From Chromatiales bacterium (GTDB lineage: Bacteria > Pseudomonadota > Gammaproteobacteria > JACCYU01), in assembly GCA_031177845.1 (NCBI GenBank), contig JAPSGG010000022.1, positions 1 to 10,245 of the forward strand: 10,245 nucleotides of DNA, read 5' to 3'. Below the pieces are notes generated by a model. The model was given only the letters and a program-made list of their open reading frames with translations, was not told the DNA's origin and did no database searches. The position numbers and the translations under genes are program-made. Shown here piece after piece: positions 2,001 to 6,488 of the stretch (within the stretch, counting starts at the first letter, position 1; the number at the start of each line of letters is the position of its first letter).

Positions 2001-3224
2001 CTAATCCCAGCTCAAAGTCCCGCCGGTCTGGTACTCGGTCACGCGCGTCTCGAAGAAGTTTTTCTCTTTGTTCAAGTCCGCCATCTCGCTCATCCATGGG
2101 AAGGGATTCTCCGCGCCTGGCCACAATTCGGCCAATCCAATCTGAGCGCAGCGGCGATTGGCGATGAAGTGCAGGTATTCGTTGAACATGCCGGCATTGA
2201 GGCCTAGCACGCCGCGCGGCATGGTGTCGTGAGCATAGCGGATTTCGAGTTCGGTGGCTTCACGGATCATGTCACGGGCCTCTTCCTTGAACTTGTCATC
2301 CCACAGGTGCGAGTTCTCGATCTTGATCTGGTTGATGACATCGATGCCGAAGTTGAGATGCATGGATTCGTCGCGCAGGATGTATTGCACCTGCTCGGCC
2401 GTACCGGTCATCTTATTGCGCCGTCCGAAGGAGAGGAACTGCACGAAACCGCCGTAGAAGAAGATACCTTCGAAGATGACGTAGAAGGCGATCAGGTCGC
2501 GTAGCAGGCGCTGGTCGGCCTCCGGCGTGCCGGTATGGAAATTGGGATCGCCCAGAGACTGAGTGTAGGGCAACGCCCATGCAGCCTTGTCGTGTACCGA
2601 GGGGATCTCTCGATACATGTTGAAGATCTCTTTCTCGTCTAGCCCCAGCGATTCGACGATGTATTGAAAACAATGCGTGTGCACCGCCTCCTCGAACGCT
2701 TGGCGCAACAGGTATTGACGACATTCCGGGTTGGTGAGATGCCGATAGATGGCTAACACCAGGTTATTCGCAATCAGCGATTCGGCGCTGGCGAAAAACC
2801 CCAGGCTACGTTTGAAGATCAGGCGCTCGTCATCGGTTAGGCCCGCCGGATTCTTCCATAGCGAGATGTCGGCCGACATATTGATCTCGTTGGGCATCCA
2901 GTGATTGGCGCAGCCATTTAAATACTTCTGCCAGGCCCATTTGTATTTAAATGGCACGAGCTGGTTCAGGTCGGCCCGGCAGTTGATGATTTTCTTATCG
3001 TCGACGTGGATGCGGCTGGCACCCATCTCCACCGCCTCCAGACCCGTCGCACCGTGCTCAGCCTCGACGGATGCAGTGTCGATCTGGGCTGCAGGCGATA
3101 CCGCATCATCGGCGGCCAACGAATACGGGTTCATCTTGGCGCCCGCGATCTCTGAATCGGGCGACGCGTTGGACCTGTCCACGTAGTCGATGTGCTCGCT
3201 TGCTGGTTCGTCCCAATTCAACAT
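2001..3224 (-). CDS. nrdB: Ribonucleotide reductase small subunit, class Ic signature (Phe replaces radical Tyr)
   Basis: R2 subunit (407 aa) of aerobic ribonucleotide reductase, which supplies the oxidant that starts NDP reduction in NrdA. The start has an excellent GGAGGTGA just upstream. Residues 1-70 are an acidic, low-complexity extension; the ferritin-like core follows. Dimetal ligands are Glu148, Glu179, His182, Glu252, Glu286 and His289. The position of the E. coli radical Tyr122 is Phe186 (codon TTT, plus-strand 2667-2669), and Asp84 is replaced by Glu148. As I recall the Chlamydia trachomatis class Ic protein (Glu89, Glu120, His123, Phe127, Glu193, Glu227, His230), every interval matches. 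Tyr281 corresponds to its Tyr222, used in electron transfer during activation. The C-terminus (YQTGG, then SWD) is the tail that docks on NrdA. Overall similarity to the Pseudomonas-type NrdB is high. A Mn/Fe cofactor is inferred from the residues, not shown. Confidence 0.96.
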
Positions 3225-3403: not shown

Positions 3404-6274
3404 CTATTGACATGCTTCGCAATCGGGATCATCAATGGCGCACATCATCGGTGGATCTTGTTCGCCCGATCCATTGGTGGGCACCGCATTAAGTTTGCTG
3501 GCGCGGCCGTCGCTCATGGTGCTCTTTTCCACGTGCGTGGCGCCCACCGAGCGCAAGTAGTACGTGGTCTTCAAACCGCGTGTCCAGGCAAGCTTATAGA
3601 GGCTGTCCATCCTTTTGCCGGATGGCTTCGCCATGTACAAATTCAGCGATTGCGCCTGATCGATCCACTTCTGTCGTCGCGAGGCAGCCTCAATTAGGAA
3701 CGCCGGATCCACCTCAAAGGCGGTGGCGTACAGTGCCTTCAAATCCGATGGCACGCGGTCGATGGCCTGCACGCTACCGTCGTAGTACTTGAGATCGTTG
3801 ACCATGACCTCGTCCCACAGACCGCGCTGCTTTAGGTCGTCCACCAGGAAAGGATTGATGCAAGTGAACTCGCCCGACAGGTTCGACTTGACGAACAGGT
3901 TCTGGTACGTGGGCTCAATACTCTGGGTGATGCCACAGATGTTGGAGATCGTGGCCGTGGGCGCAATCGCCATGGTATTGGAGTTGCGCATGCCGATACT
4001 TTGCACCCGCGCGCGGAGCCGCTCCCAGTCAAGCGTGGTGGAGCGATCCATCTCTAGATGGCCGCCGCGCTCCTGTGCCAGACGGTCGATGGAGTCGATT
4101 GGTAGTATGCCCTGGCTCCACAGAGAGCCGTTGAAGCTTGAATAGGCGCCACGCTCCTCGGCCAGGTGAGTTGAGGCCTTGATCGCGTAATAACTGACGG
4201 CTTCCATGGAGCGGTCGGCGAATTCGACGGCGGCCTCTGAGGCATAGGGAATGCGGAGCTTATAGAGCGCATCCTGAAAGCCCATGATGCCTAAGCCCAC
4301 CGGGCGGTGGCGCAAATTGGCCCGCCGCGCCTTTCCCACGCTGTAGTAGTTGTAGTCGATGACGTTGTCCAGCATGCGCATCGCGGTAGCAATGGTCTTC
4401 TCCAGCTTTTTGTGATTCAGCCCTTGGCTGTCCACATGCGCGGAGAGATTGATACTGCCCAGGTTGCAAACCGCGATTTCATCATCCGAGGTGTTCAAGG
4501 TGATCTCGGTGCACAGATTTGAGCAGTGCACCACGCCGACGTGGCCCTGTGGCGAGCGCAGGTTGCAGGGATCCTTGAAGGTCATCCAAGGGTGACCGGT
4601 CTCATACAGCATGTTCAGCATCTTGCGCCACAGGTCCACAGCCCTGATCTGCTTGAAGACCCTGATCTCGCCTCGCGCGGTCCTTTCCTCGTACTCGGCG
4701 TAACGCCGCTCAAAGGCTTGGCCGTAGAGATCATGCAGATCCGGAACCTCGTTCGGCGAAAACAGCGTCCAAGACTTATCCTCCATGACGCGCTTGATGA
4801 ACAGATCCGGAATCCAGTTGGCGGTGTTCATGTCGTGCGTACGCCGGCGATCATCGCCGGTGTTCTTGCGCAGCTCGATGAACTCCTCGATGTCCAGATG
4901 CCAGGTCTCGAGATACGCGCACATCGCGCCCTTGCGTTTGCCGCCCTGGTTCACCGCCACCGCAGTGTCGTTGGCGACCTTTAGAAACGGCACGATGCCC
5001 TGTGACTTGCCGTTGGTGCCCTTGATGTGCGAGCCCATCGCGCGCACACGGGTCCAGTCGTTACCTAAGCCGCCCGCGAACTTGGACAGCATGGCGTCAT
5101 CCTGGATGGATTCGAAGATGCCGTATAAGTCATCCGGCACCGTGGTGAGATAGCAGCTCGACAACTGCGGGCGCAGCGTGCCGGAGTTAAACAGCGTCGG
5201 CGTGGAGCTCATGAAGTCGAACGAGGACAGCAGGTTATAAAACTCGATGGCCGCTGCCTCGCGGTCGATCTCGTTGATCGCGAGCCCCATCGCCACACGC
5301 ATGAAAAACGCCTGCGGCAATTCAAAGCGCGTGCCGCCGAAGTGGACAAGATAACGGTCGTACAGGGTCTGCAGACCGAGATAGGTGAACTGATGGTCCC
5401 GCTCCGGCTTAATGGCGGCGCCAAGCTTGTCGAGGTCGTATTCGGTCGCGAGTTTCTCATCCAATAGTTCCAGTTCAGCGGCCCGTTTGACGTAGTTCTT
5501 AAAGTAGTCGGGATACTGACCGGCCATCTCCTCGAAGGTCGCCTCGCGCGGCTGCCCGGCCAGGAAGGAGAGTGCCTCGCGGCGCAGATTATCCAGCAGC
5601 AGGCGCGCCGAGACGTAGGTGTAATTCGGCTCCTTCTCGATCAGAGTGCGCGCCGCCAGCGTGAGGGCGGTGCCGACCTCGTGCTCTGGCACGCCGTCGT
5701 ACAGGTTGCGCAAAGTCTCGTCAATGATCGGTTGCCGCTCGACGTCCGCGGTCCCGCGGCAGGCCTCGGTCACGACCTTGTGCAATCGCTCGATGTCCAG
5801 CGGCTTTAAGCCGCCGTCGGCGAGGGCAACGGTAACGCATGGCCGCGCGGCGGTCTTTTTTGCCTTGACCTGCTGCGCCGCGCGCGCCTTGGCGTGTTCC
5901 TCACGATACAGCACGTAGGCACGCGCCACTTTGTAATGGCCCCCCCGCATCAGTGCCAGTTCGACTTGATCCTGGATGTCTTCGATATGGAATATGCCGC
6001 CATCGGGCATATTTCGCGTGAGCGCGTGCGTAACCTGTTCGGCGATGCGATCCACCGCCTCGCGAATGCGGCCGCTCGCTGCTGCATTGCCGCCTTCCAC
6101 CGCAAGAAACGCTTTGGTGACCGCGATCTTGATCTTGTTCTTATCGAACGTGGTGACCATGCCGTTACGCCGTATCACGCGGTAACGGCCGGGAGCGGCG
6201 GCGCTGATCTCGGCTGGAGGCGTATCGCGACTGGAGGTCGGCTCGTGATCAGTGGCGGCTGTCGTGATGTGCAT
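3404..6274 (-). CDS. nrdA: Ribonucleoside-diphosphate reductase large (catalytic) subunit, two ATP-cones
   Basis: Catalytic R1 subunit, 956 aa from ATG 6274; it reduces NDPs to dNDPs in the cytoplasm with NrdB. Two consecutive ATP-cone regulatory domains lie at about 30-130 (RYRVIRRNGMVTTFDKNKI region) and 145-235, as in the long Pseudomonas aeruginosa NrdA rather than the 761-residue E. coli form. The barrel carries Cys374 (LSSCYL) and Cys603 (VCNLGS) as the redox pair, Asn586/Cys588/Glu590 (SNLCTE) as the thiyl-radical site, Tyr905/Tyr906 (KTTYYLR) for radical transfer, and the C-terminal shuttle pair Cys952/Cys955 (CEAC). I chose ATG 6274 because GAGG lies 9 nt upstream and a promoter lies at 6350-6379. 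The upstream in-frame ATG at 6397 would precede that promoter. It is the first gene of the nrd operon. Confidence 0.97.
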   Translation of the reverse strand: MHITTAATDHEPTSSRDTPPAEISAAAPGRYRVIRRNGMVTTFDKNKIKIAVTKAFLAVEGGNAAASGRIREAVDRIAEQVTHALTRNMPDGGIFHIEDIQDQVELALMRGGHYKVARAYVLYREEHAKARAAQQVKAKKTAARPCVTVALADGGLKPLDIERLHKVVTEACRGTADVERQPIIDETLRNLYDGVPEHEVGTALTLAARTLIEKEPNYTYVSARLLLDNLRREALSFLAGQPREATFEEMAGQYPDYFKNYVKRAAELELLDEKLATEYDLDKLGAAIKPERDHQFTYLGLQTLYDRYLVHFGGTRFELPQAFFMRVAMGLAINEIDREAAAIEFYNLLSSFDFMSSTPTLFNSGTLRPQLSSCYLTTVPDDLYGIFESIQDDAMLSKFAGGLGNDWTRVRAMGSHIKGTNGKSQGIVPFLKVANDTAVAVNQGGKRKGAMCAYLETWHLDIEEFIELRKNTGDDRRRTHDMNTANWIPDLFIKRVMEDKSWTLFSPNEVPDLHDLYGQAFERRYAEYEERTARGEIRVFKQIRAVDLWRKMLNMLYETGHPWMTFKDPCNLRSPQGHVGVVHCSNLCTEITLNTSDDEIAVCNLGSINLSAHVDSQGLNHKKLEKTIATAMRMLDNVIDYNYYSVGKARRANLRHRPVGLGIMGFQDALYKLRIPYASEAAVEFADRSMEAVSYYAIKASTHLAEERGAYSSFNGSLWSQGILPIDSIDRLAQERGGHLEMDRSTTLDWERLRARVQSIGMRNSNTMAIAPTATISNICGITQSIEPTYQNLFVKSNLSGEFTCINPFLVDDLKQRGLWDEVMVNDLKYYDGSVQAIDRVPSDLKALYATAFEVDPAFLIEAASRRQKWIDQAQSLNLYMAKPSGKRMDSLYKLAWTRGLKTTYYLRSVGATHVEKSTMSDGRASKLNAVPTNGSGEQDPPMMCAIDDPDCEACQ

Positions 6275-6347
6275 GCTATTCGTCCTCAGGTCTTGGATGT
6301 CTGGCAAGCTTGAATTGTGAAACGGATTATGGGCCAGAGCTGGACCA

Positions 6348-6363
6348 GCACTATAGGATGTGG
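6348..6363 (-). promoter_or_regulatory. NrdR box 2 (proximal, covers the -10)
   Basis: GCACTATAGGATGTGG keeps the CAC...GTG ends and the TATA half of the NrdR-box pattern but is less symmetrical in the middle. It starts 32 bp from box 1, about three helical turns, which is the usual spacing of paired NrdR boxes. It contains the -10 hexamer, so occupancy should block RNA polymerase. Confidence 0.75.
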
Positions 6364-6379
6364 TGCGAGATCGAGTCAA
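6350..6379 (-). promoter_or_regulatory. Sigma70-type promoter of the nrdA operon
   Basis: On the minus strand TTGACT (plus 6374-6379) and TATAGT (plus 6350-6355) are separated by 18 bp. Each matches the consensus hexamer at five of six positions. Transcription would start near 6343, giving an untranslated leader of about 70 nt before ATG 6274. The two NrdR-like boxes flank and overlap these elements, which supports the assignment. Confidence 0.78.
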
Positions 6380-6395
6380 GCACAATATACTGTGC
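6380..6395 (-). promoter_or_regulatory. NrdR box 1 (distal)
   Basis: The 16-bp near-palindrome GCACAATATACTGTGC fits the known NrdR-box pattern (acaCwAtATaTwGtgt) almost throughout. It directly abuts the upstream side of the -35 hexamer of the nrd promoter. NrdR is the ATP-cone repressor of ribonucleotide reductase genes in bacteria; its own gene is not in this window. Confidence 0.82.
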
Positions 6396-6488
6396 AAAAC
6401 CCGGTGCGAAGGCTATCCGAAACCTGTGCATAAATTGGGGAAGGATATCGCCGAACTCGGCTTCAACCCGCATCACACAAGGCATAGC

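Follow-up and report, generated by a model that had tools for sequence, protein, structure and literature searches.

The class Ic ribonucleotide reductases (RNRs), enzymes that produce the building blocks of DNA, are characterized by a small subunit (R2 or NrdB) that combines a phenylalanine at the position of the radical tyrosine with a glutamate as the first metal ligand, and by an Mn(IV)/Fe(III) oxidant (PMC8463856, PMC4118035); the tyrosine-to-phenylalanine change at the radical position in class Ic is also discussed in PMC3019208. In the R2c protein of Chlamydia trachomatis (PDB codes 1syy, 4d8f, 4d8g, 4m1h, and 4m1i), Y222 and W51 constitute the electron route for activation of the cofactor (PMC4118035). 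According to the same paper, the choice of metal at site 1 is not explained by the nature of the first ligand alone, and how protein structure sets Mn/Fe versus Fe/Fe loading is described there as unresolved. A second type of class Ic protein, the canonical or Saccharopolyspora type, is found in S. erythraea (PDB code 6y2n), Methylocella tundrae, and some gammaproteobacteria. With regard to the history of these proteins, PMC3824934 refers to one earlier study in which R2c is polyphyletic and gives a single clade in its own, smaller sample; common descent does not enter into the definition of class Ic in the cited passages. Bacterial class Ic enzymes are, then, already known, and the family treated here is a further lineage of them; we found no description of class Ic in this family or in Salinisphaera in the literature searched, and a 2010 survey of Mn/Fe proteins, seen here as cited in PMC4118035, may already list them.

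The window, i.e., the whole stretch of DNA analyzed, comprises positions 1 to 10,245 of contig JAPSGG010000022.1 from a Chromatiales bacterium, an uncultured gammaproteobacterium. On its minus strand, nrdB (2001..3224; an open reading frame of 407 amino acids plus stop) encodes a class I RNR small subunit with a Glu/Phe (class Ic-type) pairing, which contains the PF00268 domain and matches the profile NF005550 (NCBI model PRK07209) with 680 bits against a cut-off of 309. A preliminary description of this DNA had pointed to Glu148 and Phe186 in this protein, and both residues are confirmed: codon 148 is GAA (2781..2783) and corresponds to Glu89 of C. trachomatis, where tyrosine-type proteins have aspartate, and codon 186, at the radical tyrosine position, is TTT (2667..2669) and corresponds to F127; the span 2667..2783 given for the signature ends exactly on these two codons. 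The other metal ligands, all on the same strand and likewise aligned to the chlamydial protein, are E179 (GAG, 2688..2690; E120), H182 (CAC, 2679..2681; H123), E252 (GAA, 2469..2471; E193), E286 (GAA, 2367..2369; E227), and H289 (CAT, 2358..2360; H230), so that the set of six is intact. As the window residues align to these positions, the chlamydial numbering and intervals given in the preliminary description, including F127, are right. Intact ligands with equal intervals are not diagnostic on their own, since Asp/Tyr relatives share them; it is the Glu/Phe pair that is diagnostic, and its use as a mark of class Ic follows a published sequence hallmark (PMC8463856). The tyrosine form given there for comparison, EEAIHTHAY, proved common among other gammaproteobacteria in genome motif scans. 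Also encoded are W109 (2898..2900, minus strand; W51 of C. trachomatis and W48 of Escherichia coli), F256 (2457..2459; F197), Y281 (2382..2384; Y222), and Y398 (2031..2033; Y338, a residue of inter-subunit radical transfer), the last of which we take to correspond to E. coli Y356. These four were rejected as discriminators of class Ic, since nearly all tyrosine-type relatives carry them too (W109, F256, Y281, and Y398 in 264, 263, 261, and 262 of 264 rows, respectively).

The same Glu/Phe pair is present in both genomes of the same family, with codon TTT in G001 and TTC in G002, and nine of the 120 best homologues have it as well, counting the window protein. Eight database proteins with 79.7 to 85.5% identity possess it; P0007 among them is the protein of G002, and the window family amounts to 10 distinct sequences, that of the window among them. 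Because it recurs in both same-family genomes and in seven other database proteins, the pair is no sequencing slip, and its fixation across the family rows seen disposes of the read error in a class Ia protein, which the preliminary description had named among the outcomes that would refute class Ic. A motif scan of the class matched 126 of 369 genomes, and among the matches listed, 11 genomes from six families have the phenylalanine in NrdB; two further phenylalanine matches (G213 C39 and G048 C195) have no NrdB match. The scan of the phylum matched 45 of 299 genomes, with the phenylalanine in the NrdB of eight, six of these from outside the class, and one further phenylalanine match (G412) without an NrdB match. 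At 80 genome_contigs loci, the pairs were Asp/Tyr in 75 and Glu/Phe in five, all Salinisphaera, a sample that is biased because the query's own phenylalanine motif was among the scan patterns and only the top 80 of 473 relatives entered it. Across 487 aligned rows, which are not independent, being related and including 120 from a single search with one S. erythraea protein, Asp/Tyr occurs 300 times, Glu/Phe 183 times, Glu/Tyr three times, Asp/Cys once, and Asp/Phe never. The corresponding counts for the 439 distinct sequences are 271, 164, three, and one, and Phe186 is always accompanied by Glu148. By these sequence comparisons, the Asp-to-Glu and Tyr-to-Phe change is concerted and not the result of drift.

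A few rows have other pairings. L155 and L156 (from G109 and G225) and P0260 possess a glutamate first ligand with a tyrosine at the radical site, the pairing that distinguishes class Id; Glu/Tyr rows fall at two separate places of the NrdB subfamily tree, and the residue at Glu+4 in L155 and L156 is alanine, versus the lysine of class Id. A single sequence, P0048, has Asp/Cys at the ligand and radical positions (HTHAC), possibly an error, and P0001, an NrdB of 608 residues whose core is repeated internally, is probably an assembly artefact.

The Glu/Phe pair belongs to a larger set of residues in the metal pocket, which in the window further includes Cys185 (TGT, 2670..2672, minus strand) and Gly258 (GGC, 2451..2453, minus strand), both of which are threonine in canonical class Ic. 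The set Glu-Cys-Phe-Gly at positions 148, 185, 186, and 258 is found in all 15 rows of the window family (10 distinct sequences) and elsewhere among the 487 aligned rows only in two Salinisphaera-like proteins, P0257 and P0264. The Saccharopolyspora-type rows (135) have Glu-Thr-Phe-Thr, Salinisphaera has Glu-Cys/Thr-Phe-Ala, C. trachomatis has Glu-Thr-Phe-Ser, and most tyrosine types have Asp-Ala/Ser-Tyr-Val/Cys. Residue 185 is threonine, cysteine, or once serine in phenylalanine rows and alanine or serine in nearly all tyrosine rows, and residue 258 is threonine, glycine, alanine, or serine in the former and mostly valine, sometimes cysteine, in the latter. That positions 185 and 258 change along with the Glu/Phe pair argues for an adapted metal pocket rather than a stray substitution. 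When the window protein is compared with P0012, a Tyr/Asp protein, 51 of 335 positions differ, of which 11 (148, 151, 185, 186, 189, 258, 263, 276, 279, 283, and 290) lie in the stretches of sequence that surround the metal site. As a natural pair, these two stand much closer together than the window protein and C. trachomatis R2c (57.7% identity), so that the residues required to switch the cofactor become directly testable, in non-pathogens; many close relatives of the window's bacterium carry the tyrosine version of NrdB.

Each of the related systems combines likeness with difference. C. trachomatis R2c shares the Glu/Phe pair, the six ligands, and the four aligned aromatic residues, but the above identity of 57.7% applies (over residues 72 to 406), the pocket differs, and it never stands beside the window NrdB in any tree that includes both; in three trees it lies near EEAIHTHAY-type Asp/Tyr and Glu/Tyr rows, and in another it is basal, on a long branch. 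The Saccharopolyspora-type proteins, which include the closest solved structure (6y2n), share the Glu/Phe pair but are about 68 to 74% identical (57% for the divergent row L105), differ at 185 and 258, and form a clade of their own with 21 rows, outside of which the window protein falls (100/97). Salinisphaera and Salinisphaera-like NrdBs also share the pair and are about 76 to 82% identical, with cysteine or threonine (once serine) at 185 and alanine (twice glycine) at 258; the NrdA and RpoB of Salinisphaera, however, belong to another lineage than those of the window. The gammaproteobacterial class Ia-type NrdBs (from Solimonas, Sinimarinibacterium, Thioalkalivibrio, Legionella, and others) reach 85% identity over residues 72 to 406, but they carry Asp/Tyr with mostly Ala/Ser185 and Val258 and are of the tyrosyl-radical type by sequence. 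Over its whole sequence, the window NrdB resembles some Asp/Tyr proteins (85%) more than it does canonical class Ic, which reaches 74% at best, or the C. trachomatis protein, at 58%.

Along the minus strand, nrdB follows nrdA (3404..6397), as in the other loci compared, and cysJ and cysI are divergent from both. The NrdA is a class I large subunit that carries ATP cones (NF005544, 1720 bits; ATP-cone, all-alpha, and barrel domains); the TTG listed as its start codon probably lies too far upstream, and codon 42 is an ATG. A motif search recovered in it a short cysteine motif and a Tyr-Tyr motif, which presumably represent catalytic residues. Judged by profile, domains, and motifs, this NrdA is intact and is predicted to be an active partner of the adjoining NrdB. 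The window's genome, which is 78.5% complete, contains one PF00268 and one PF02867 protein; within this incomplete genome neither a second class I small subunit (PF00268 search) nor a match to NRDD was found. As the same-family genomes G001 (99% complete) and G002 (96%) likewise have one protein of each kind, the window NrdB is probably the essential aerobic enzyme. An Nramp-type transporter was not found in the window's incomplete genome and is present once in each of G001 and G002; with Nramp in 5 of 11 genomes (four of six Phe/Glu and one of five Asp/Tyr), manganese transport was set aside as too weak a support. Downstream of nrdB, the segment 368..1988 (minus strand) encodes a weakly GIY-YIG-like product (below the cut-off) and an N6/N4 DNA methyltransferase, which tblastn did not recover near nrdB in the two same-family genomes and 18 other loci, some of whose flanking stretches end soon after nrdB. 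The best matches to NrdB are 65% in the phage collection, 70% in viral_contigs (Asp/Tyr), and 79% among plasmid records (Legionella adelaidensis), and none points to phage or plasmid carriage of nrdB.

We propose that the window very probably encodes an aerobic class I RNR of the class Ic type, with an Mn(IV)/Fe(III) cofactor. This reading is supported by the Glu/Phe pair and by the solved structures nearest in sequence, which are themselves Phe/Glu proteins, namely, 6y2n, at 581 bits, and the R2c of C. trachomatis, at 445 bits, with the remaining chains listed (best 60 of 83) at about 151 bits or less. Class Ia is typified by a radical tyrosine with an aspartate first ligand, and class Id by a Tyr/Glu pair with a lysine near the metal site; the window NrdB has Phe186, Glu148, and, at Glu148+4, Ala152. 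Counting against class Ic, positions 185 and 258 are unlike those of both the canonical and the chlamydial versions, the first ligand alone does not explain which metal site 1 takes (PMC4118035), and the search of the window's incomplete genome gave no Nramp-type transporter. The class named in the preliminary description is most likely right. In such an enzyme, Mn would most likely occupy site 1 of NrdB, on the side of Glu148, with Fe occupying site 2; reaction with O2 would then yield Mn(IV)/Fe(IV), and one-electron reduction via Tyr281 and Trp109 would give Mn(IV)/Fe(III). This center, rather than a tyrosyl radical, would oxidize the NrdA cysteine through a conserved radical-transfer chain comprising Trp109, Tyr398, and the Tyr-Tyr pair of NrdA. 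We infer these metals, oxidation states, and steps from the sequence. An enzyme of this kind might also confer the resistance to oxidants suggested in the preliminary description.

Of the other cofactors that could be envisaged, an Mn/Mn center would also go with a glutamate first ligand and no tyrosyl radical, and class Id, whose oxidant is Mn2(IV,III), does have that ligand (PMC8463856, PMC6754362). Class Id is, however, set apart by its pairing of Tyr with Glu and, in the subgroup that was studied, by lysine at Glu+4 (PMC8463856, PMC6754362), where the window has Phe186 and Ala152, and the nearest solved relatives are Phe/Glu proteins, which renders an Mn/Mn cofactor improbable here. A diiron enzyme with its radical on another residue would find a candidate in Cys185, which adjoins Phe186 and is constant in all 15 family rows (10 distinct sequences), but since threonine (canonical class Ic), alanine or serine (most tyrosine types), and cysteine or threonine (Salinisphaera type) alternate there, 185 looks like a packing position, and we regard such an enzyme as quite improbable. 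Among apicomplexans, some of the second R2 copies likewise lack the radical tyrosine (PMC3824934), which would be the precedent for a non-catalytic or degenerate subunit; the window NrdB, however, is the sole PF00268 protein found in its incomplete genome, as are those of G001 and G002, it retains all ligands and the C-terminal tyrosine, and its Tyr-to-Phe change is accompanied by Asp-to-Glu, making a dead subunit very unlikely. That the protein is an R2-like ligand-binding oxidase (R2lox), which shares the glutamate at ligand 1 and the want of a tyrosyl radical (PMC3824934, PMC4118035), is hardly credible, as it falls below every R2lox cut-off listed (best 59.7 bits against 194, versus 680 for the RNR subunit-beta model), keeps Tyr398, the counterpart of a C-terminal R2 tyrosine that R2lox lacks, and is encoded beside nrdA.

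The protein was placed in R2 phylogenies, as the preliminary description had recommended, and the trees disagree on the exact place of the window NrdB. The first careful tree nested it within Asp/Tyr proteins together with Salinisphaera (98/90). Three trees place it among Asp/Tyr rows, together with Salinisphaera or close to it, two that lack Salinisphaera data also place it among Asp/Tyr rows, and one with reduced columns does so apart from Salinisphaera; in three others, one of them the full-column counterpart of the reduced tree, it belongs to a grade of Phe/Glu rows that has canonical class Ic on one side and the Asp/Tyr proteins on the other. The Phe/Glu rows make up a single split in these last three trees and not in the others, the trees with chlamydial and haloarchaeal rows included. 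Upon addition of Salinisphaera-like intermediates, the Phe/Glu rows come to occupy one side of a branch (79/92). In AU tests, a single Phe/Glu split gave p values of 0.269 without and 0.173 with C. trachomatis, joining the window with canonical class Ic 0.129, and joining Salinisphaera with canonical class Ic 0.407. The union of the window with canonical class Ic was rejected (p = 0.009) in one setting, with Salinisphaera left out and six columns removed, that was chosen after seeing the data. Removing three columns without Salinisphaera gave 0.377, removing the six while keeping Salinisphaera gave 0.364, 0.31, and 0.355, and removing all columns near the metal site gave 0.576 or higher, with the constrained trees outscoring the free search. 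With p between 0.17 and 0.58 in five settings and 0.009 in the one post hoc setting, the data stay compatible with a single switch separating the window protein from the canonical class Ic proteins. We do not claim an independent origin of the window's pair, since its rejection of a shared one depends on that post hoc setting, the other AU tests are non-rejecting, and the added intermediates gave a single split; nor do we assign a direction, Tyr to Phe or the reverse, as trees with distant outgroups are unstable, with long branches. For the wider subfamily, both trees with chlamydial, haloarchaeal, and EEAIHTHAY-type rows added imply three to four changes of the Phe/Glu label, two to three of them forced by starred branches, and 0% of 200 bootstrap trees have one change.

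The host history gives a different picture. In the RpoB tree, the window family, with the window's own sequence partial, groups with L077 (99/95) and then with Thioalkalivibrio (100/100), and Salinisphaera lies elsewhere (100/99). The NrdA tree similarly joins the window with L077 (96) and groups Salinisphaera with two other genomes of the Asp/Tyr type (98), and NrdA rejects a clade of the window and Salinisphaera (p-AU 0.0013); on this tree the Phe/Glu label needs seven changes, six of them forced by starred branches. By NrdA and RpoB the genome belongs next to the Asp/Tyr Thioalkalivibrio type, which is not where NrdB puts it, so cofactor type and host history, as read from these sequences, disagree. 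With columns 148, 185, and 186 removed, NrdB rejects the window with L077 (p = 0.023, and 0.015 in a second run with a slightly different row set) and with L077 plus Thioalkalivibrio-type rows (0.0011 and 0.0008). These rejections vanish (0.376 for L077 and 0.114 with the Thioalkalivibrio type) once every column close to the metal site is taken out, so convergence near the metal site is a live alternative to displacement of nrdB, and we do not adopt displacement as a settled reading. It appears that nrdB has in part followed a course different from that of nrdA, whether it was displaced or was converted in place while its pocket changed convergently. We tentatively suggest, as a scenario that is plausible but falls somewhat short of probable, that the cofactor of this subfamily switched between tyrosyl/diiron and Mn/Fe several times, and that in the lineage of the window's bacterium a change of nrdB alone, by foreign displacement or in-place conversion, beside a resident NrdA inherited with the Thioalkalivibrio type, produced a class Ic enzyme with a Glu-Cys-Phe-Gly pocket chemistry of its own. 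Saccharopolyspora-type class Ic NrdBs are also seen in gammaproteobacteria of three other families (f158, f146, and f171; L141 to L144 and L147). The NrdAs of f158 (80, inside a starred set of 97) and f171 (99) group with Asp/Tyr gammaproteobacteria, and as a class Ic NrdB stands beside such an NrdA, replacement of nrdB alone is likely in these two families.

A further feature concerns the N terminus of NrdB (residues 1 to 12; 3189..3224, minus strand), where MLNWDE resembles LSWD of the C-terminal tail, which we take to be the NrdA-binding tail. An initial methionine, up to three residues, and then L.W[DNE] form the start of 108 of 119 homologues. NW[DE] occurs within the first 30 residues of 43 of the 119, versus 0.6% in shuffles, and in none of the 120 proteins from the S. 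erythraea search. It is possible that the N terminus functions as a second tail for the large subunit.
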